This document shows, piece by piece, positions 17,928 to 29,832 of a stretch of 50,951 nt of DNA. The stretch is taken from assembly GCA_947165135.1 (NCBI GenBank), contig CAMUZE010000009.1, positions 1-50,951 on the forward strand, written 5' to 3'. The notes beneath the pieces were generated by a model, which saw nothing but the letters and a program-made list of their open reading frames with translations, was not told the DNA's origin and did no database searches. This stretch comes from an uncultured Clostridia bacterium. Lineage in GTDB: Bacteria > Bacillota_I > Bacilli_A > RF39 > UBA660. Within the stretch, counting starts at the first letter, position 1; the number at the start of each line of letters is the position of its first letter. A program made the position numbers and the translations under genes.

Positions 17928-18923
17928 ATGTTAAAAATAGCTATTAATGGTTTTGGTAGAATAGGAAGAACTGCTCTTAGACTTCTTGAAAATGATAAGG
18001 ATATAGAAGTTGTTGCAATAAATGATTTAACTGATCCATTGCAACTGGCATATCTATATAAATACGATTCTGTTCATAGAACTAATAAAAGTAAGATTAG
18101 TTTTGATGAAGACGAATTATTTGTTAAAAATAGAAAAATAAAAGTATTTGCTGAACCTGATCCTACAAAATTACCTTGGAAAAAATTAGGAGTTGATATT
18201 GTACTTGAATGCACAGGTGTGTTTACATCTGTAGAAAAGTGTCAAGCTCATATAGAAGCAGGGGCAAAACATGTAATTATTAGTGCACCTGCTAAAGATG
18301 ATGCTAAAACAATCGTTTATGGTGTTAATGATAATATTCTTAAAAAAGATGATATTGTTATTAGTGCTGCTAGTTGTACCACTAACTGTTTAGCACCGGT
18401 ATTAAAACTAATTGATGATAAGTATGGAATTGTAAAAGGATTTATGACTACTGTTCATGCAATGACTAATGATCAAGAAACTTTAGACATTCCTCATAAA
18501 AAAGGAATTATGTCTCGCCGTGGTAGAGCAGCATCATTAAATATTATTCCAACTTCTACTGGAGCAGCTTCTCAAATTGGAAAAGTTATTCCACATTTAA
18601 ATGGAAAATTAGATGGAATTGCATTTCGTGTCCCAACTGGGGATGGTTCTGTTATTGATGTAACATTAGAACTTGCTAAAAAAACTACTAAAGAAGATGT
18701 TAATAATATGTTTAAGTCTAATCAAAGTAAAACATTAAAATATACAGATGATCCAATAGTAAGTAGTGATATTATTGGTGAAGAATGTGGAGCAATAGTT
18801 GATGGGCTTTTAACAAATGTTGTTGAAAGTGATGGAAAAGTTCTGTTAAAAGTGGTTGCTTGGTATGATAATGAAGTGGGTTATACTGCTCAAATGATTA
18901 GGACAATGAAAAAATTCTTATAA
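17928..18923 (+). CDS. gap: Glyceraldehyde-3-phosphate dehydrogenase, type I
   Basis: 331 residues, normal length. It oxidises glyceraldehyde-3-phosphate to 1,3-bisphosphoglycerate with NAD+ in glycolysis. The N-terminal Rossmann motif is INGFGRIGR. The active-site Cys is C150 in SAASCTTNC. WYDNEVGY near the C-terminus is also typical. The SD AGGAGG is ideal. It is the last gene of the two-gene operon, so expression should exceed that of the kinase if translation is stronger. pgk (28635) and gpmI (35657), the next steps of the pathway, are elsewhere in the window in separate units. Confidence 0.97.
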   Translation: MLKIAINGFGRIGRTALRLLENDKDIEVVAINDLTDPLQLAYLYKYDSVHRTNKSKISFDEDELFVKNRKIKVFAEPDPTKLPWKKLGVDIVLECTGVFTSVEKCQAHIEAGAKHVIISAPAKDDAKTIVYGVNDNILKKDDIVISAASCTTNCLAPVLKLIDDKYGIVKGFMTTVHAMTNDQETLDIPHKKGIMSRRGRAASLNIIPTSTGAASQIGKVIPHLNGKLDGIAFRVPTGDGSVIDVTLELAKKTTKEDVNNMFKSNQSKTLKYTDDPIVSSDIIGEECGAIVDGLLTNVVESDGKVLLKVVAWYDNEVGYTAQMIRTMKKFL

Positions 18924-20858: not shown

Positions 20859-20879
20859 ACTCCTCCTGTAAGGGGGAGT
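20859..20879 (+). promoter_or_regulatory. Hairpin pairing a C-rich anti-SD with the SD
   Basis: ACTCCTCC (20859-20866) can pair with GGGGGAGT (20872-20879) around the loop TGTAA; the stem has one G-U pair. The 3' arm is the ribosome binding site of the gene at 20884. The predicted transcript start falls inside the 5' arm, so only transcripts from further upstream would contain the complete hairpin. Confidence 0.6.
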
Positions 20880-20883
20880 GTAT

Positions 20884-21279
20884 ATGAAAAATATTAAAAA
20901 AATAATTTTTGGAATTGCTTTAATGTTTTTTAGTACATATAACGTTTTGGCTGATACTTTCTATTATTCAGATTTAGAATTTGGAAAAGATGGATTTGGT
21001 CCAATAGGACAGACTTGTTCACAAGTGTTAGGCACAACAGTAGTTAAAATAGTACATAGTTCTGTTGGAATATTAAGAATAGTTGCGGTATTTATTGCAA
21101 TTATTAGTGCTATGTTTACTTTGACTACAGCAATTACTTCTAAAGATGCTGATGGGCTTAAAAAAGCAGGAAAGAAATGTGTTGTTATGGGAGTAGTATT
21201 ATTATGTATTGGAGTTTTCCCTTCAGTAGCAACTCTTATTGCTTCAATCTTTGGATTTGACACAACATGTATTTTTTAA
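20884..21279 (+). CDS. Small two-TM secreted-type protein, VirB2/TrbC-like topology
   Basis: 131 residues. ATG 20884 is chosen because GGGGGAG lies six bases upstream; GTG 20878 overlaps the SD itself. There is a signal peptide (about 1-23, cleavage after NVLA), a short outer segment, a hydrophobic helix (about 57-85), a basic loop KDADGLKKAGKK, and a second helix (about 99-123). This size and topology match VirB2/TrbC-type pilin subunits and related small membrane proteins of type IV secretion systems, but sequence identity cannot be judged by eye and no other secretion gene is nearby. Four cysteines remain in the mature part. It has the strongest promoter of the window and an unusual SD hairpin, so regulated high expression is plausible. 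Confidence 0.7.
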   Translation: MKNIKKIIFGIALMFFSTYNVLADTFYYSDLEFGKDGFGPIGQTCSQVLGTTVVKIVHSSVGILRIVAVFIAIISAMFTLTTAITSKDADGLKKAGKKCVVMGVVLLCIGVFPSVATLIASIFGFDTTCIF

Positions 21280-21305
21280 GTAAAAAGTTAAAATAATTAT
21301 GGTAT

Positions 21306-21347
21306 AAAAACTTCTATTAGTGTATAATGATAATAGGAGTTTTTTAT
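21306..21347 (+). terminator. Terminator-like hairpin enclosing the next promoter and SD
   Basis: 14-bp stem with one G-U pair (21306-21319 with 21331-21344), 11-base loop, and a T run ending two bases before the CotH-gene ATG. The loop contains TATAAT (21323-21328), the -10 of the downstream operon, and the 3' arm contains its SD TAGGAG (21334-21339). It can end transcripts of the upstream gene and hide the SD in any read-through, whereas transcripts started from the internal promoter lack the 5' arm. Confidence 0.75.
21323..21339 (+). promoter_or_regulatory. -10 and SD of the CotH-VTC operon
   Basis: TATAAT at 21323-21328, predicted start near 21335, SD TAGGAG at 21334-21339, ATG at 21348. 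The SD is at the extreme 5' end of the predicted transcript. Confidence 0.55.
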
Positions 21348-24260
21348 ATGGAGTTTAATATTAAAAAATTTAAGAATAATATTCCTTTTTTTACTATTTG
21401 TATTTCATTAATAGTAGTGTTTTTATTATTAGGACTATTAACTAATAAAGACTCAAAAACTCTTGATAAAAAAGATTTCGAATCTGGAGATGTAAATATA
21501 TCTAAATTAGTTATTAATGAAATAATGACCGCTAACAAAGGAACATTTACTGATCCAAATGGAAAACTATATGACTATATTGAAATATATAATGGCAATG
21601 ATCATGACATAGATTTAAAAGATTATGGCTTAAGCGATGAAAGTAAAGAAGTTAAATGGGTATTTCCTAGTATAACAATTGAAGCTAAGTCATATTTAAT
21701 AGTTTATTTAAGTGGAACTAATGGTGAAGGGTTATATACACCATTTAAATTAAAATCAAGCGGTGGAGAAGTTGTTACTTTATTTAAGCCAAACGGAAAA
21801 GTAGTGGATGCTGTTGAAACAGTAGCATTAGAATCTAATACTGTTATGGCAAGAGATATTAATGGTAAATGGATAGTTCAGTCATCCGGAACACCTGGTT
21901 TTGCAAATACAAAAGAAGGTTATACTGAATTTGTAGCATCTCTTGTATCTGGTGATAAGAAAACAATTGTAATAAATGAAATACTTGCTAATAACAAAGG
22001 AAACTTTAAAAACGAAAATGATGTATATAGTGGTTATATAGAAATTAAAAATGTAAGTGATGAAACAATAGATATAGCAAATTATAGTTTATCTAATAAT
22101 GAAAGTGTTCCATTTAAATGGCAATTCCCGTCTACGAGATTATCTTCTGGTGAAGTGGCTGTTGTTTATACAAGTGGTATTAATGATAAAGAAGAGGTAT
22201 TAAGTACATCATTTAAATTAAATAATAATGGAATAGTTGTTCTTACTAACAGTAAAGGACAAGTAATAGATAAAGTTGAATATAAAAATCTTGCTAATGG
22301 AATAGCATTATTAAAACAAGGCGGTAATTATCTTGAAAGTAATTCTATTTCACCAGGATATGATAATACAGTTGATGGAATAAAATCTTTCCAAAAGAAA
22401 TATTTATCAATGCCTAAAGATTTAGTAATAAATGAAGCTATGAATAATAATTATAGTTATCTAGCTCAAAACGCTGGTAATTATTATGATTGGATAGAAC
22501 TTTATAATAATAGTAATAAAACAATTACATTAAGTGATTATTGTTTAACCACAAATAATAATACTATGTGTATGTATAAACTTCCTAAAGTTGAATTAAA
22601 ATCAGGTGAATATTATATAGTTATGGCATCTGGAGATACCAAGTTATCAAATAGTAAATATAAACATACTAATTTTAAATTATCGGAGACTCAAAGTTTA
22701 TATTTAACAAAATCTAGTGATATAGTTGATTCAATATTTCTAGCTAATATTCCAGATGGGTATTCAATGGGAAGAGGCTCATCTTATGGAATATACTATT
22801 TCAATAAACCAACTCCTGGATCTAAAAACGGAAGTGGTACTGAAGCAGTATCATATGTGCCTAAAGCGTCTATTGAAGCAGGTGTATATAATAATAAAAA
22901 TTCAATTGAGGTTGCTCTCAAAGGATATGGACAAATATATTACACAACAGATGGTTCAAAACCTACAACTTCATCAAAAATATACAGTAGTCCTCTTACA
23001 ATTAAGAAGACTACTGTTTTAAGAATAATGGGTAAAGAAAGTGGTAAATTAAATAGTGAAATTAAAACATATTCATACATAGTAAATGAAAATCATACTT
23101 TACCTGTAATGTCCCTTGCAATTAACCCAAGTGATTTAAGTTCTCTTCATTCACATGCTTGGACAGAAGGTTATATTAAACCAGTTTATGCTCAATATTT
23201 TGAACTAAATGGAGATGGATTTGAAATAGGAGCTGGTCTTAAACTATTTGGTGGATCTACAAGAGGTCATGCTAAAAAAAGTTATGAATTAAAATTTAAA
23301 AAAAGATATGGAGCAGGTAAGTTACATTACCAGGTATTTGACGATGTTGATAGTGCAATATTTGATTCTATAGTTTTGAGAACAGGTTCTCAAGATGAGA
23401 TGGGAGATTATTCTAAAAAAGCATTAATTCGTGATATAGTTGGAACTGCTTTAGTACATGAATATACTAATGTAGATGTCCAAGCATATAAACCAATAGT
23501 TCTATATTTAAATGGAAAGTATTGGGGAATATATTTCTTACGTGAAAAAATTGATGAAACATTAGTGGCTAATCACTATAATGTAGAAGCATCTAAAACT
23601 AAAACAGATTTGCTTAGAATAGATGGACAATTAAAAAGTGGAAGTAGAAGTAAATATTATAAATTAACTTCATATATATCTAGTCATCCACTTAGTAATA
23701 GTGATTATTATGATGAAGTCGCTAAACAAATAGATATAGAAAATATATGTGATTTTTGGATAGCTGAGACTTGGACTGCTAATAATGATATAGTAAACGT
23801 TAGATTTTTCTCTAATCCTGAAGTTGATGGTGGTAAATGGAAATTTATATTCTATGATTTAGATAGTGCATTTTATAATGTAGATAAAAATTATTATCAA
23901 TTTTCTACTAGTGCTTCTGGTATGACTAGTCGTGGATATTCTACTTTCTTACTTAGAAACTTGATGAAAAGTTCTAAATTCAAAAAAACATATTTAGAAA
24001 GACTATCATATAATTTAAAAAATACATGGAGTACTGAAAATGTATTAAAGAAAATAGATGATGTAATTAAAGAAATTGGAAAAGATGAAATAAAAAGAAA
24101 TTATAGTCGTTGGAATAAGAGTTATTCTGAATGGGAAAATAATGTTGATTTTGTAAGAAATTATGCTAAAAAAAGAAATAAATATATGGTAAGTCAAGCT
24201 AAGTCATTCTTTAATTTATCAAGTAGTGATGCTAAGAAATATTTTGGTGATGTAAAATGA
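21348..24260 (+). CDS. Membrane-anchored CotH-family kinase with three lamin-tail domains
   Basis: 970 residues; ATG 21348 is chosen because TAGGAG lies eight bases upstream. A signal anchor (about 9-31) is followed by three lamin-tail domains, each starting with VINE (about 54-190, 205-335, 362-500), a chitobiase/FN3-like module with YYTTDGSKPT (about 505-575), and a CotH kinase domain (about 580-940). The CotH core is intact: GGSTRGH, YLNGKYWGIYFLREKID (R732, E733, K734) and YDLDSAF with D837 as likely metal ligand. Bacillus CotH phosphorylates serines of spore coat proteins, but here the anchor and lamin-tail modules indicate action on the outer face of the membrane. First gene of a seven-gene operon; its TGA overlaps the next ATG. 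Substrate unknown. Confidence 0.9.
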   Translation: MEFNIKKFKNNIPFFTICISLIVVFLLLGLLTNKDSKTLDKKDFESGDVNISKLVINEIMTANKGTFTDPNGKLYDYIEIYNGNDHDIDLKDYGLSDESKEVKWVFPSITIEAKSYLIVYLSGTNGEGLYTPFKLKSSGGEVVTLFKPNGKVVDAVETVALESNTVMARDINGKWIVQSSGTPGFANTKEGYTEFVASLVSGDKKTIVINEILANNKGNFKNENDVYSGYIEIKNVSDETIDIANYSLSNNESVPFKWQFPSTRLSSGEVAVVYTSGINDKEEVLSTSFKLNNNGIVVLTNSKGQVIDKVEYKNLANGIALLKQGGNYLESNSISPGYDNTVDGIKSFQKKYLSMPKDLVINEAMNNNYSYLAQNAGNYYDWIELYNNSNKTITLSDYCLTTNNNTMCMYKLPKVELKSGEYYIVMASGDTKLSNSKYKHTNFKLSETQSLYLTKSSDIVDSIFLANIPDGYSMGRGSSYGIYYFNKPTPGSKNGSGTEAVSYVPKASIEAGVYNNKNSIEVALKGYGQIYYTTDGSKPTTSSKIYSSPLTIKKTTVLRIMGKESGKLNSEIKTYSYIVNENHTLPVMSLAINPSDLSSLHSHAWTEGYIKPVYAQYFELNGDGFEIGAGLKLFGGSTRGHAKKSYELKFKKRYGAGKLHYQVFDDVDSAIFDSIVLRTGSQDEMGDYSKKALIRDIVGTALVHEYTNVDVQAYKPIVLYLNGKYWGIYFLREKIDETLVANHYNVEASKTKTDLLRIDGQLKSGSRSKYYKLTSYISSHPLSNSDYYDEVAKQIDIENICDFWIAETWTANNDIVNVRFFSNPEVDGGKWKFIFYDLDSAFYNVDKNYYQFSTSASGMTSRGYSTFLLRNLMKSSKFKKTYLERLSYNLKNTWSTENVLKKIDDVIKEIGKDEIKRNYSRWNKSYSEWENNVDFVRNYAKKRNKYMVSQAKSFFNLSSSDAKKYFGDVK

Positions 24261-24946
24261 AAAAAGAATATAAGTATAGACATGAATTAAAATTTAAAAT
24301 ATCTAATGCTGCAGCAGAAGTTTTAAAGCAAAAGTTGTCATTAATATTAGATAAAGATAAGTTTGCATATTATAAAGATGGATCATATTTGATAAAGAGT
24401 TTGTACTTTGATGATAGGGATTCAAGTTCATATTATGAAAAAATGGATGGAGTTCTTTATAGAAAGAAATATAGGATAAGAATGTATAATGATGACGATA
24501 CATTTATAAGACTTGAAAAAAAGATGAAACATAATAACTTTACAGCCAAGGAACAAATATTGATTTCTAAAGATATCTATAGTAAAATATTAAATGGCAA
24601 AATTGATGAAATAAGTAAACCTAAAGGTTTATTGCTTGAATTTATTAATGATTATAAGACTAAAGGATTAATTCCATCAATAATTGTTGAATATCATAGA
24701 CTTGCATTTACATATCCAATTAGTGAAGTTAGAATAACATTTGATTCTAACGTACAAAGTGGACTTTATAATTATGATTTATTTGATAGTAAGTATCCTA
24801 GATTTGATGTTTTAGAACCTGGTATGCAAGTATTAGAAGTTAAATTTAATGAAGTATTACCTTTGCATATTGCGAATATATTAAATGATATACCTAGTGT
24901 AAGAGAAGCAGTATCCAAATTTGCAATATGTAGAAGTATAAAATAA
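24257..24946 (+). CDS. VTC-domain polyphosphate polymerase-like protein
   Basis: 229 residues, essentially one VTC tunnel domain. It keeps the basic residues expected to line the phosphate channel: YRHELKF at the N-terminus, YRIRMY (R73 and R75), IRLEKKMK, IVEYHR and VLEVKF (E194, K196). Eukaryotic Vtc4 makes polyphosphate from ATP. No membrane helix or signal is present, so it should work on the cytoplasmic face. It overlaps the CotH gene by four bases (ATGA) and is followed after 12 bases by DUF4956, an arrangement known from other bacteria. Whether the product is polyphosphate or another phosphate polymer is not shown. Confidence 0.88.
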   Translation: MKKEYKYRHELKFKISNAAAEVLKQKLSLILDKDKFAYYKDGSYLIKSLYFDDRDSSSYYEKMDGVLYRKKYRIRMYNDDDTFIRLEKKMKHNNFTAKEQILISKDIYSKILNGKIDEISKPKGLLLEFINDYKTKGLIPSIIVEYHRLAFTYPISEVRITFDSNVQSGLYNYDLFDSKYPRFDVLEPGMQVLEVKFNEVLPLHIANILNDIPSVREAVSKFAICRSIK

Positions 24947-24958
24947 GGAGTGAAAAAA

Positions 24959-25648
24959 ATGAGTGTAGTAGACACAATTAAAAAATCAGTTTTAAATAAT
25001 TTTACTGGAACAATATCTGCTTGGGATATGATATTTTCATTAATAATTGCATTTATTATTGGAATATTCATAATATATGTATATAGGAAAACTTACACTG
25101 GAGTTGTTTATTCTAAAGCGTTTTCTCTATGTATATTAATGCTTTCTATGGTAACAGCAATGATAATAAGAACAATTAGTTCTAATATCTCTCTTTCTTT
25201 AGGTATGGTTGGTGCTTTATCTATAGTTAGATTTAGAACTGCTGTTAAGGAACCTGTAGATACTGGATTTATGTTCTGGGGAATATCAGCAGGTATTATG
25301 GCAGGAGCGGGACTTTATATTCCTGCTTTAGTAGCATCACTTGGAATTGGAGTATTATATTTCGTTAGTTATTTAATGGGATTTAAAGTATCTAATAGAT
25401 ATTTATTAGTTCTAAAATATGAAAGAAATGCTCATGACGATGTAATGAGAAAATTAAAAGCATTAAGAAAATTTAAAATTAGAAGTAAATCACTATTCGG
25501 TGATACAGTAGAGTTATCACTTGAAGTCGATTTAAAAGAAAATAGTAAGAATGGTTCTGTAAGTACAGAAATAGTTGATCAATTTAATAATATTGATGGA
25601 ATAATTAATGCAAGTTTAATTGCATATCAAAATGATTTTGGAGAATAG
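24959..25648 (+). CDS. DUF4956 family membrane protein
   Basis: 229 residues; ATG 24959 is chosen because AAGGAG lies nine bases upstream, whereas GTG 24950 would touch the SD. It has about four membrane helices (roughly residues 20-45, 55-80, 90-120, 120-145) with the conserved cytosolic-side motif GALSIVRFRTAVKEP, then a soluble C-terminal domain of about 80 residues. The family has no known activity; the RFRTAVKEP segment and its constant company with VTC proteins suggest it is the membrane partner of the polymerase, perhaps a channel or product exporter (inference). Confidence 0.85.
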   Translation: MSVVDTIKKSVLNNFTGTISAWDMIFSLIIAFIIGIFIIYVYRKTYTGVVYSKAFSLCILMLSMVTAMIIRTISSNISLSLGMVGALSIVRFRTAVKEPVDTGFMFWGISAGIMAGAGLYIPALVASLGIGVLYFVSYLMGFKVSNRYLLVLKYERNAHDDVMRKLKALRKFKIRSKSLFGDTVELSLEVDLKENSKNGSVSTEIVDQFNNIDGIINASLIAYQNDFGE

Positions 25649-25660
25649 GGGAAATAACTA

Positions 25661-27031
25661 GTGGTTAAAAGAAGACTTAAAATTAGACCAGTATTAGTAA
25701 CACTAAATATTTTAGTGTTACTTATTATTGTGGGATTTTATTCTTTTAGACTAGTTAAATATTATTTAAAAGAAAATGGTAATAAAGATAATAAAGAAGG
25801 TACATTATTAGTAGACGCTTTAATCAAAAAGCAAAGTTATGTTGATTTAACAAAAGGTCTTGTTTTTGATGAAAAAGAAGAGGTTTATAGATACATTGGT
25901 AATATAGATGATAATTATTTATTATATTCAGGCAATATATATAGAATTGTAAGTATAGACTCTGAATATAATATTAAAGCTGTATCTGAAAAGTCACTAA
26001 CTAATATGTATTCTGGACTTGAAAAAGGATATAATTCTTCATATATTAATAAATGGCTAAATTCTACTGATGAAAAGAATAGTGGAATTTTTGAAAATAA
26101 TTTACATAATCCCGAATTATTGTTTAATACAACTATTTGTGATGATGTTATAAGTGATATAACAAATATAACTTGTGAAGAAGAAAACATGGATAATAAG
26201 TTTGGAATATTATCTTTGTATGATTATGCTAAAAGTGGTGGAAAAAGTGGATATTTAAATAATGGTGAAGATTTCTTTGTAAACACACTAAATGAAGAAA
26301 ATAATATCTACTATATTACTTCTACTGGGGAAGTTAGTAGTACTGAACTTACTACTAAAATGTTTGGTGTAAGACCAGTTATTACTATTAGTGGAGATGT
26401 TAATTTAATTAAAGGAATAGGTACATTAAATAGTCCTTATGTAATAGAGGAAAATGAAATAAATATATTAAATGATTTATATGTTGGAGATATTATTGAG
26501 TTTTCTAATAACAAATTTATAGTAATAGATAATAGTTCTGATAATGTTAAAGTTGCTTCAGTTGAATCATTAAAAGATGAAGAAGGAAATGAATTATTAC
26601 AAAAATTTGGTGGCTCTAGTAGTACATATTCAAATAATAAAAATACTATTGGTTACTATTTAAATAATGAATATTATAAATCACTTAAAAATAATGATCT
26701 AATTGTTAAATCAAAATGGAATACTGGAAAATTATCCTTAGATAATTTAGATTATACAAGTATCTATTCAAATAATGTATCATTAAATATTGGAATGCTT
26801 ACATTAGGAGATATGTATATAAGTGATGTTAAAAATGTATTTACGATATTAAGAGGAATTGAAGAAGATAAAATAATTTATGTTATAAATAGTGATGGTG
26901 TTATTTATGGAGACTTTATATCTGAAAGTTATGGTATAAGACCTGCCTTCTATTTAAAAGGAGATACCTCTATAGAAAGTGGAGAAGGCACTCTTGATAG
27001 CCCATATAAACTAGGAGTTAATAATGAATAA
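25661..27031 (+). CDS. Membrane-anchored protein with two tandem extracellular modules
   Basis: 456 residues from a GTG start behind a weak GGGG SD. One N-terminal membrane helix (about 11-34) leaves about 415 residues outside. These form two related modules: both carry an opening strand set (VYRYIGNIDDNYLLYSGNIYRIV; VGDIIEFSNNKFIVI) and close with GVRPVITISGD...GTLNSPYVI and GIRPAFYLKGD...GTLDSPYKL. This resembles DUF6273-type domains of gut Firmicutes. No catalytic motif is evident; binding or scaffolding is more likely. It overlaps the glycosidase gene by eight bases, so the two are probably translated together. Confidence 0.7.
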   Translation: MVKRRLKIRPVLVTLNILVLLIIVGFYSFRLVKYYLKENGNKDNKEGTLLVDALIKKQSYVDLTKGLVFDEKEEVYRYIGNIDDNYLLYSGNIYRIVSIDSEYNIKAVSEKSLTNMYSGLEKGYNSSYINKWLNSTDEKNSGIFENNLHNPELLFNTTICDDVISDITNITCEEENMDNKFGILSLYDYAKSGGKSGYLNNGEDFFVNTLNEENNIYYITSTGEVSSTELTTKMFGVRPVITISGDVNLIKGIGTLNSPYVIEENEINILNDLYVGDIIEFSNNKFIVIDNSSDNVKVASVESLKDEEGNELLQKFGGSSSTYSNNKNTIGYYLNNEYYKSLKNNDLIVKSKWNTGKLSLDNLDYTSIYSNNVSLNIGMLTLGDMYISDVKNVFTILRGIEEDKIIYVINSDGVIYGDFISESYGIRPAFYLKGDTSIESGEGTLDSPYKLGVNNE

Positions 27032-28058
27032 AGAGAAGAAGGAAAAGAAAAGCAAATTTAGTATATTCTTAATTATAGTTGATATTCTTGCTATAGTTTG
27101 TTTTTTTGTTGCTTATGGTCCTTTTTCATTTTTTAGAGATTGGTTTGTAACTACTTCAATGACAACAATGACTCATAGATATTTTGCATATGTATTATAT
27201 AGTCAAGATATGATTGATGAAGTCCTTGATAATAATAAAATAATTGAATCTGAAGATCCAACAGATACTTCTAAAATTAGTTTCAATGCTAATGTAGATA
27301 CCGGAACTTATGAATCAATTTATGAAGAACAAGTCTTGAAAAGAGATGAAGGAAATGATATATATAAAGTAGTAGATATTAAAGGGAAATCTTGGAATGG
27401 TAAGATGGTAGTTGTATATGATCCGTCTAAATTAAAACTAATATTTTCTAAAAAGTATGGGGGTTCTGGAGAATATCTATCAACTATGGCTAAAAATAAT
27501 AATGCACTTGTTGCGATGAATGCATCTGGTGTATATCATCCAAATGGCCAAAATAGAGTTACTGGTACTGCTATATTAAATGGGAAAGTATATGCAACTG
27601 GTAAAAAAATAAACAAAGGTGGAGGACTTATTGGCTTTACAAAAGACAATATCTTAATGCTTACTAAGAAAAGTGCAAAAGAAGCTATTGCAGATGGAAT
27701 GGATAGAGCTGTAGAATTTGGTCCATTCTTAATAGTTAATGGTAAAATGGCATCATTTAAAGGAAATGGTGGATGGGGTATTGCTAATAGAAGTGCAATA
27801 GGTCAAAGACAAGATGGAATAGTACTTTTAATGGCTATTAATGGAAGAAGTTCTAAGTCAATTGGTATTTCAATGAAAGAATTAGCTGAAGTATTTCAAA
27901 AATATAAAGCATATAATGCTGCCAATTTAGATGGTGGAGGAAGTAGTGCATTATATGCAGTAGTTAATGGAAAAGGATCACTTATTAATAATCCAGTAGG
28001 ATATGGATATAGTGGTGAAAGATATTTACCAAATGCTTGGATGGTTTTACCAGAATAG
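27024..28058 (+). CDS. Membrane-anchored phosphodiester glycosidase (NAGPA family)
   Basis: 344 residues: one N-terminal membrane helix (about 14-36), a linker, then a NAGPA/DUF2233 domain (about 120-344). Typical motifs are ALVAMNASGVYHPNG, RSAIGQRQDGIVLL and NLDGGGSSAL (about 301-310). The family's founding member, the human uncovering enzyme, removes GlcNAc from a phosphodiester; bacterial members are often annotated as exopolysaccharide proteins. Outside the cell it could cleave or rearrange sugar-phosphate diesters of a wall polymer. Its place directly after the CotH, VTC and DUF4956 genes links phosphate polymer chemistry and glycan chemistry in one operon. Confidence 0.88.
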   Translation: MNKEKKEKKSKFSIFLIIVDILAIVCFFVAYGPFSFFRDWFVTTSMTTMTHRYFAYVLYSQDMIDEVLDNNKIIESEDPTDTSKISFNANVDTGTYESIYEEQVLKRDEGNDIYKVVDIKGKSWNGKMVVVYDPSKLKLIFSKKYGGSGEYLSTMAKNNNALVAMNASGVYHPNGQNRVTGTAILNGKVYATGKKINKGGGLIGFTKDNILMLTKKSAKEAIADGMDRAVEFGPFLIVNGKMASFKGNGGWGIANRSAIGQRQDGIVLLMAINGRSSKSIGISMKELAEVFQKYKAYNAANLDGGGSSALYAVVNGKGSLINNPVGYGYSGERYLPNAWMVLPE

Positions 28059-28066
28059 GAGGAATA

Positions 28067-28624
28067 ATGAACGTAGAATTTAGAAATCCAACAATTTATT
28101 TAATCGCAGGAAAAGCAAGACATGGAAAAGATACATTTTCTAATTACTTAAAAGAAGCATATGAAGAGAAAGGTAAGAAAGTCATTATTACTCAACTTTC
28201 TAAGTATATTAAATATTATGCTCGTGAAATGACTGGATGGGATTTGAGTGAAGAAAATAAACCAAGAGAATTATTACAGCTTTTAGGAACAAATGTTATT
28301 CGTGAACAATTAAAAAAAGAAGATTTATTTATAAGTAGATTAAAAGATGATATTGAAATATTTAGTTATTTCTATGATGCGATAATTGTAAGTGATGTTA
28401 GATTAAAAAAAGAAATAGAAGATTTAAGAAAATATTTTCCAAATTTAACAGCTATTAGAGTATTTAGACCAAACTTTGATAATGGTCTTACACCTGAACA
28501 AAAAATGCATAAAACTGAAATTGATTTAGATGATTATGATAAATTTGATATAGAAATAACAAATATAACATTAGAGGATTTAAAAGAAAAAGCAAGAAAT
28601 GTATACATGAATAAAGAAGGGTAG
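28067..28624 (+). CDS. P-loop kinase, deoxynucleoside monophosphate kinase-like
   Basis: 185 residues; ATG 28067 is chosen because TAGGAGG precedes it. Walker A is GKARHGKDT (15-23), a form typical of dNMP kinases and related nucleotide kinases. It continues with QLSKYIK, RELLQLLGTNVIRE and VSDVRLKKEI, and HKTEIDLDDYDKFDIEI near the end. It would phosphorylate a nucleoside monophosphate in the cytosol. It is eight bases after the glycosidase gene and ten before pgk, so co-transcribed with both. The exact substrate cannot be told; a general AAA-type ATPase is less likely. Confidence 0.78.
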   Translation: MNVEFRNPTIYLIAGKARHGKDTFSNYLKEAYEEKGKKVIITQLSKYIKYYAREMTGWDLSEENKPRELLQLLGTNVIREQLKKEDLFISRLKDDIEIFSYFYDAIIVSDVRLKKEIEDLRKYFPNLTAIRVFRPNFDNGLTPEQKMHKTEIDLDDYDKFDIEITNITLEDLKEKARNVYMNKEG

Positions 28625-28634
28625 GTATAAAAAA

Positions 28635-29783
28635 ATGGAAAGCATTAAAAATGTAAATGTAAATGGTAAGAAAGTGTTAGTTAGAGTTGATTTTAATGTA
28701 CCAATAAAAAATAATGTGATTCAAGATGATACTAGAATAGTTGGTGCATTAAAAACAATTAAGTATTTAGTTGATAACAAAGCTAAAGTAATATTATTAT
28801 CACATTTAGGTAGAGTTGAATCTCAAGAAGATAAAGATAAGAATACTTTAGAACCTGTTGCTAAACATTTATCAACATTAATTGATACCCCAGTATATTT
28901 TGTTCCAATCACAAGAGGAGACATGTTGGAAGGAACAATAAATAATATGTCAGATGGCGAAGTATTAATAGTAGAAAATACAAGATATGAAGACTATCCT
29001 AAAAAGATGGAAAGTTCTTGTGATGAAGCATTATCTAAATATTGGGCAGGTCTTGCCGATATATTTGTATTAGATGCTTTCGGTAGTGCACATAGATGTC
29101 ATGCATCAACATATGGTATATCTAAATTTTTACCATCTTATTCTGGTTTCTTAGTTGATGAAGAAATGGAAATGTTAAATAAGGCAATGCATGAAAAGAA
29201 AACATTAATATTAGGTGGAAGTAAAGTAGATGATAAATTAGGAGTAATTGATAATTTAGTTAATACTTCTGATGCAATACTTCTTGGTGGAGCGATGTGC
29301 TTTACGTTCTTAAAATCACAGAATTTAAATGTTGGTAAAAGTATTGTAAGTGAAGAGAAATTAGAATACTGTAAAAACCTTTTAGATTCACATGGTGATA
29401 AGATTCATCTACCTATAGATATAGTTACACAAAATGGAGTAAAAAATATTAATGAAATAGAAGCAAATGATATTGGTTATGATATCGGACCTGAAACAAT
29501 TAAAGAATATGAAAAAATATTAGATAAAAGTAAATTTGTTCTTTGGAATGGACCTTTAGGAATGTATGAAGATGAAAAATATGAAAATGGTACTAAAGAA
29601 CTAATGTCATATTTAAATAAGAATAATATTACGACAATGTTAGCAGGTGGAGATATAACAAGTGCTGCCAAAAAATTTGGAATTACTTTTAAATATATAT
29701 CTACTGGTGGAGGTTCTACCCTTGAATACCTAGAGGGCAAGAAATTTAAGACTTTAGAGAGATTAAATGGGGATAAACAATAA
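28635..29783 (+). CDS. pgk: Phosphoglycerate kinase
   Basis: 382 residues, slightly shorter than the usual ~395. It transfers phosphate from 1,3-bisphosphoglycerate to ADP. Motifs: VRVDFNVP, LSHLGR, VLDAFGSAHR, GGSKVDDKLGVI (usually GGAKVSDKI), LWNGPLGMYE, AGGDITSAA and STGGGSTLEYLEG. These small substitutions mark a divergent but functional-looking enzyme. Last gene of the CotH-VTC operon, followed by a strong terminator, and not next to gap, its usual neighbour. The ATP it forms is the substrate of the VTC polymerase encoded in the same transcript. Confidence 0.95.
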   Translation: MESIKNVNVNGKKVLVRVDFNVPIKNNVIQDDTRIVGALKTIKYLVDNKAKVILLSHLGRVESQEDKDKNTLEPVAKHLSTLIDTPVYFVPITRGDMLEGTINNMSDGEVLIVENTRYEDYPKKMESSCDEALSKYWAGLADIFVLDAFGSAHRCHASTYGISKFLPSYSGFLVDEEMEMLNKAMHEKKTLILGGSKVDDKLGVIDNLVNTSDAILLGGAMCFTFLKSQNLNVGKSIVSEEKLEYCKNLLDSHGDKIHLPIDIVTQNGVKNINEIEANDIGYDIGPETIKEYEKILDKSKFVLWNGPLGMYEDEKYENGTKELMSYLNKNNITTMLAGGDITSAAKKFGITFKYISTGGGSTLEYLEGKKFKTLERLNGDKQ

Positions 29784-29807
29784 AAGAAAGAAAAAATCTT
29801 TCTTTTT
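29782..29807 (+). terminator. Terminator of the CotH-VTC-pgk operon
   Basis: 10-bp stem AAAAGAAAGA/TCTTTCTTTT (29782-29791 with 29797-29806), A5 loop, T run. It overlaps the pgk stop codon. Confidence 0.9.
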
Positions 29808-29832
29808 ATTTGATAAAAATAATAATTTATGA

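Follow-up and report, generated by a model that had tools for sequence, protein, structure and literature searches.

A CotH-VTC-DUF4956 trio and a phosphodiester glycosidase pair between gap and pgk: a possible two-module surface phosphopolymer system

What might an anchored CotH-family kinase, a polyphosphate-polymerase domain of the VTC type and a phosphodiester glycosidase have in common that places their genes together inside a glycolysis operon? The question is raised by seven co-directional genes on the forward strand at positions 21348-29783 of the window, the 50,951-nucleotide stretch analyzed here, which is one whole contig (G000:C9) of the 1.24 Mb genome of an uncultured Clostridia bacterium, for which contamination is estimated at 5.2%. 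Open reading frame calls and Pfam assign the genes, in order, to CotH, VTC, DUF4956, a DUF6273-like tandem-module protein, NAGPA, a kinase like deoxynucleoside-monophosphate kinase (DNMK) and phosphoglycerate kinase (PGK). The answer that we tentatively favor, at somewhat short of an even chance, is that CotH, VTC and DUF4956 (module A) and the tandem-module protein and NAGPA (module B) form a two-module surface phosphopolymer system, in which VTC-DUF4956 would make and probably export polyphosphate that serves surface enzymes.

The first five genes are a conserved cassette in the genus. VTC is present in the window genome and in 14 of the 17 other genus genomes, and in all 14 loci of the genus retrieved around this gene (L033-L044, L059 and L060, the last two being contig ends without CotH) the order CotH-VTC-DUF4956-DUF6273-like-NAGPA is kept as far as the contigs extend; the shared gene order is far beyond chance. 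The 4-base overlap of CotH and VTC (ATGA) is found in 11 of the 12 genus loci that have CotH, the DUF6273-like/NAGPA overlap also recurs across the genus, and purifying selection acts on each of the five genes (ratio of nonsynonymous to synonymous substitution rates, 0.03-0.40), most weakly on the tandem-module gene. The tight packing described in the first-pass annotation, with overlaps or gaps of no more than about 12 bases, was borne out, as the junctions along the seven genes are, in order, -4, +3, +12, -8, +8 and +10 bases. Its title named six gene families correctly but left out the sixth gene, a P-loop kinase like DNMK (28067-28624; PF21448, 2.5e-10) that lies between NAGPA and pgk. Additional genes stand between NAGPA and DNMK in three genus loci (L038, L040 and L042), and the cassette proper therefore ends after NAGPA. 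In other genera of the family a uridine-kinase-like gene, gap and pgk are consecutive or nearly so (L190, L191, L192, L195 and L199), and in the window genus the cassette sits between gap (glyceraldehyde-3-phosphate dehydrogenase; 17928-18923, from the open reading frame call and the genus loci) and DNMK-pgk, the DNMK-like kinase accompanying pgk there. Because gap and pgk are adjacent in related genera, the cassette is inserted between them, pgk (28635-29783; Pfam, 5e-125) being a member of the old gap-pgk operon. The linkage to pgk is thus explained by the insertion site, and the earlier suggestion that co-transcription with pgk ties the system to ATP supply finds no support. One genus member, whose genome is 6% contaminated, has a second pgk (G014:C9:4500-5636) with a family score above that of the cassette pgk.

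Module B is a stable pair. The tandem-module protein (25661-27031) is called DUF6273-like only as a nickname, as its domain score of 21.2 bits (PF19789, 2.9e-4) is under the curated Pfam cut-off of 23.5; no solved relative of it was found, and an AlphaFold2 model built with four sequences gave no usable fold (mean pLDDT 39). The NAGPA protein (27024-28058; PF09992, 1.6e-39) scores 136.2 bits versus a cut-off of 25, has relatives with solved structures and carries the NLDGGGSS motif. When the tandem-module profile was searched in 60 relatives and the source genome, 23 of 24 full-length copies had a NAGPA domain no more than 3 kb away, and the remaining copy (G010) lies at the end of its contig, where part of a NAGPA gene is visible; these two genes are thus always linked to each other. 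Modules A and B are joined in three geometries, namely in line, divergently (L066, L069) and as NAGPA alone after DUF4956 (L063, L064), and their linkage is limited to one clade, the window genus together with L063-L069, except for a NAGPA gene beside a second VTC in the source genome. These arrangements bear on the alternative that two unrelated modules share an operon for expression only, the interval between gap and pgk having offered them steady transcription, and do different jobs. That B is found family-wide independently of A, that A is widespread without B, and that gap adjoins pgk in other genera all agree with it, but A and B are neighbors outside the glycolysis operon too, in the divergent and NAGPA-alone loci, and NAGPA also adjoins the second VTC-DUF4956 pair; we regard this alternative as unlikely.

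Module A was surveyed in the 80 best DUF4956 loci of the genome collection, with partners called by profiles built for this analysis, up to a set distance counted in genes. VTC is no more than two genes away from DUF4956 in 78 of the 80, and the third partner is CotH in 61, the beta-helix protein Cthe_2159 in 8, and both together in none. In a phylogeny of 109 DUF4956 proteins, several long branches of which are unsurely placed, the partner labels require 17 changes; for the CotH label the number is 16 (27.2 in shuffles), and well-supported branches account for at least 10 of these changes. Repeated swapping of the outer partner between CotH and Cthe_2159 is well supported. Among 149 genomes of the phylum, CotH occurs in 28, VTC in 27 and both in 21 (Fisher p 1.3e-14, uncorrected for kinship), and 15 of 32 VTC genes are within 5 kb of CotH. 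PelG-CotH fusion proteins are encoded in three Paenibacillus (L082:6140-9244, L089:6143-9250 and L123:5992-9255) and tie CotH to an exopolymer exporter. PelF-like glycosyltransferases adjoin the trio in some loci; in L086 and L130 the neighbors of CotH-VTC-DUF4956 include, besides other genes, a PelF-like DUF3492 glycosyltransferase, PelG not being seen among the few neighbors scanned. CotH proteins unlinked to VTC (L202-L230) mostly have a lipoprotein-type signal, with Cys after a hydrophobic stretch; those linked to VTC in the sample mostly have a plain membrane anchor, and some VTC-linked ones outside it, such as L087, also look lipoprotein-like. The second VTC-DUF4956 pair of the source genome (L032; G000:C35, 1-7061) has as neighbors a GT2/GtrA gene, NAGPA, two Cthe_2159-type genes and a gene for a 256-amino-acid protein that by eye resembles the N-lobe of CotH minus the catalytic half; given its GC content of 25.6% and the contamination of the genome, L032 may be foreign.

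The arrangement of the proteins inside, in and outside the membrane that the first-pass annotation had proposed is sound because CotH, NAGPA and the tandem-module protein each have an anchor at the N terminus, with DUF4956 an integral membrane protein and VTC unanchored. Across the homologs, an N-terminal hydrophobic segment is predicted in 72/78 CotH, 21/21 NAGPA and 19/20 DUF6273-like proteins and in 0/105 VTC proteins, and from this missing anchor VTC is predicted to be cytoplasmic. The window VTC (24257-24946; PF09359, 1.2e-32) scores 113.8 bits versus a curated cut-off of 23, and its K12, R73, R75 and E194, invariant in 13 diverse members, align with K200, R264, R266 and E426 of yeast Vtc4, of which loss of R264, R266 or E426 inactivates the yeast enzyme (PMC9911596). 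Its 229 amino acids contain the VTC domain only, the SPX domain being absent by Pfam; it is thus no Vtc4 of the eukaryotic type, but may function in a similar way. The window CotH (21348-24260; PF08757, 1.8e-39, 136.6 bits) consists of a membrane anchor, three lamin-tail (LTD) domains, a chitobiase-C-like domain (CHB_HEX_C_1) and the CotH domain, and the residues aligned with D228 and D251 of Bacillus subtilis CotH are Asp in 77/77 proteins. The sequence taken as that of B. subtilis CotH for this comparison has Asp at both 228 and 251. These two positions are the sites of inactive mutants (PMC7821199). DUF4956 (24950-25648; PF16316, 1.9e-10) was modeled by AlphaFold2 (mean pLDDT 84.7) as about five membrane helices followed by a C-terminal ACT-like domain. 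The C-terminal part matches the C-terminal domains of MgtC over 84 residues (Z 9.6-9.7, root-mean-square deviation 2.8-2.9), with other ACT domains tying; no MgtC match was found by Pfam, and the structural fold matches leave the membrane part uncovered. An invariant GALSIVRFR..K motif marks one end of a membrane helix, which by the positive-inside rule would be the cytoplasmic end. The invariant residues of DUF4956 include R94, R96 and K100. A Vtc1-like channel was considered for DUF4956 and set aside, as there was no sequence match in solved structures and the fold matches concern mainly the ACT part, though such a fold could still be present.

In the two-module system that we favor, VTC would polymerize phosphate from ATP in the cytoplasm, as its intact catalytic residues suggest, and DUF4956, its near-obligate membrane partner, would probably move the chain across the membrane, as linkage and topology suggest, with synthesis and translocation coupled by analogy with yeast VTC. 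The anchored CotH kinase would use or modify the product outside, on a cell-surface glycan or protein, a position apparently taken by the Cthe_2159 beta-helix in other bacteria. The anchored tandem-module protein and NAGPA would act by binding and cleaving sugar-phosphodiesters, for which polymers like teichoic acid are plausible carriers, and both modules would presumably act on one substrate. TagB/TagF-type transferases in 17/18 genus genomes suggest that teichoic-acid-like polymers are made in the genus. A more specific proposal, possible but doubtful, is that VTC-DUF4956 is a minimal bacterial polyphosphate synthase/exporter whose chains are used or held by the interchangeable outer CotH or polyanion-binding Cthe_2159, and that polyphosphate, in place of ATP, might serve CotH as phosphate donor outside the cell; if true, there would be a second, exported bacterial polyphosphate route besides PPK, and a widespread gene trio would be explained. 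Intracellular polyphosphate storage is common in bacteria, and VTC could instead make such a reserve, with DUF4956 merely anchoring VTC, and CotH and NAGPA modifying the surface independently. The lack of an anchor on VTC accords with an internal store, but PPK1 and Ppx were each found in 0/18 genus genomes, which leaves neither enzyme to use the reserve and argues against a storage cycle of the usual internal kind, and VTC-DUF4956 nearly always adjoins a surface-protein gene; we consider storage very unlikely.

The trio had been described as having no assigned function, which is not wholly the case: its genes are found in Pel loci, and in Streptococcus intermedius two of the three influence Pel level and aggregation (PMC7112168, PMC12345266). 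In that species deletion of DUF4956 raised Pel and deletion of CotH lowered it, both altering aggregation, and for deletion of VTC no effect on either aggregation or Pel was reported (PMC12345266). The VTC result is the strongest of several points that weigh against the two-module system. The others are that a search limited to open papers found none on bacterial VTC enzyme activity; that sequence and fold searches of solved structures identified no channel fold for DUF4956; that 7 of the 28 CotH genomes are without VTC and have extracellular CotH lipoproteins; that module B occurs in genomes where VTC was not found (G015, G019); and that in G012 module B is on a different contig from DUF4956-DNMK-pgk. 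Such CotH lipoproteins in VTC-less genomes show that CotH at the surface can do without VTC, and the idea that extracellular CotH depends on VTC for its phosphate supply is weakened. Given the pair without the trio, the trio widespread without the pair, and their separation in G012, a single obligate seven-gene system as first proposed is not supported. The Pel phenotypes also accord with a regulatory role, in which VTC and the MgtC/ACT-like DUF4956 would sense phosphate, ATP or an ion at the membrane and CotH would phosphorylate secreted proteins, tuning exopolymer output with no polymer exported. Supporting this role are the ACT-like domain at the end of DUF4956, a fold common in regulation, and the two-component genes nearby in 16 of the 80 DUF4956 loci, with either outer partner. 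However, the catalytic residues checked in VTC are all kept in the 13 diverse members, as a pure sensor need not do, and CotH is repeatedly swapped for Cthe_2159, a protein without known kinase activity, and we judge regulation alone to be somewhat unlikely.

The single promoter proposed for the operon is supported by a promoter-like GTATAAT element (21300-21350, forward strand, from folding and genus comparison) that is followed by the CotH ribosome-binding site in 13/13 genus genomes read, but a promoter consensus scan did no better than shuffles. The window element lies in a hairpin loop (z -4.5), and because the 3' arm of the hairpin holds the CotH ribosome-binding site, the site would be hidden in RNA that reads through from upstream but not in transcripts that start at the local promoter; a guard against translating read-through RNA is a possible role. 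The hairpin is less clear in some relatives. Similarly, the single terminator would correspond to a terminator-like A+U-rich hairpin and T run after pgk (29782-29812, forward strand) that folds better than shuffles (z -3.1), but a terminator scan gave no match. Directly before CotH, window positions 20878-21279 encode a pilin-like conjugal-transfer protein with a weak match to ICE_MMCAP2_0565, a gene not seen at that position in most genus loci.

Comparison with known systems places the cassette beside several of them. The yeast VTC complex (Vtc4 with Vtc1/Vtc3), which couples synthesis to translocation (PMC9911596), shares the TTM polymerase domain, the catalytic equivalents and a membrane-protein partner; it differs in that the window protein has no SPX domain, DUF4956 has no detected sequence relation to Vtc1, and translocation is shown for yeast only. 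The spore-coat kinase CotH of B. subtilis shares both catalytic aspartates, whereas the window CotH is anchored outside, joined to lamin-tail domains and without a spore-coat context. VTC-DUF4956-Cthe_2159 clusters have the identical core pair and similar neighbors, such as two-component genes, but their outer partner is a carbohydrate-binding beta-helix and no kinase, Cthe_2159 proteins binding cellulose and polygalacturonic acid (PMC6712302). With known NAGPA glycosidases the window protein shares the above-cut-off domain and the NLDGGGSS motif region, and it is bacterial and membrane-anchored. A locus of Clostridium perfringens also combines VTC and CotH genes (PMC2879425). To our knowledge, from a search limited to open papers that found none on NAGPA beside CotH, the Cthe_2159 interchange, the PelG-CotH fusion and the NAGPA/tandem-module coupling have not been described before. 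The closest likeness is to Gram-positive Pel loci, where the trio was described as an accessory (cotH-PPP-DUF4956-DUF4832; PMC7112168) and in which CotH, VTC and DUF4956 are likewise adjacent and co-directional and CotH is secreted. The window differs in having, by Pfam, no Pel genes and no DUF4832 in the cassette, and DUF6273-like and NAGPA genes instead. PelG was above cut-off in 0/18 genus genomes; a Pel system in the window genus was rejected on that count, and the trio therefore exists without Pel; it had been reported as not found outside Pel loci (PMC12345266), and the window locus is a case of just that. The trio is thus not merely a Pel accessory, its outer partner is exchangeable and a coupling to a sugar-phosphodiester enzyme is possible, and its function is therefore to be sought in surface phosphate chemistry and not in Pel alone.

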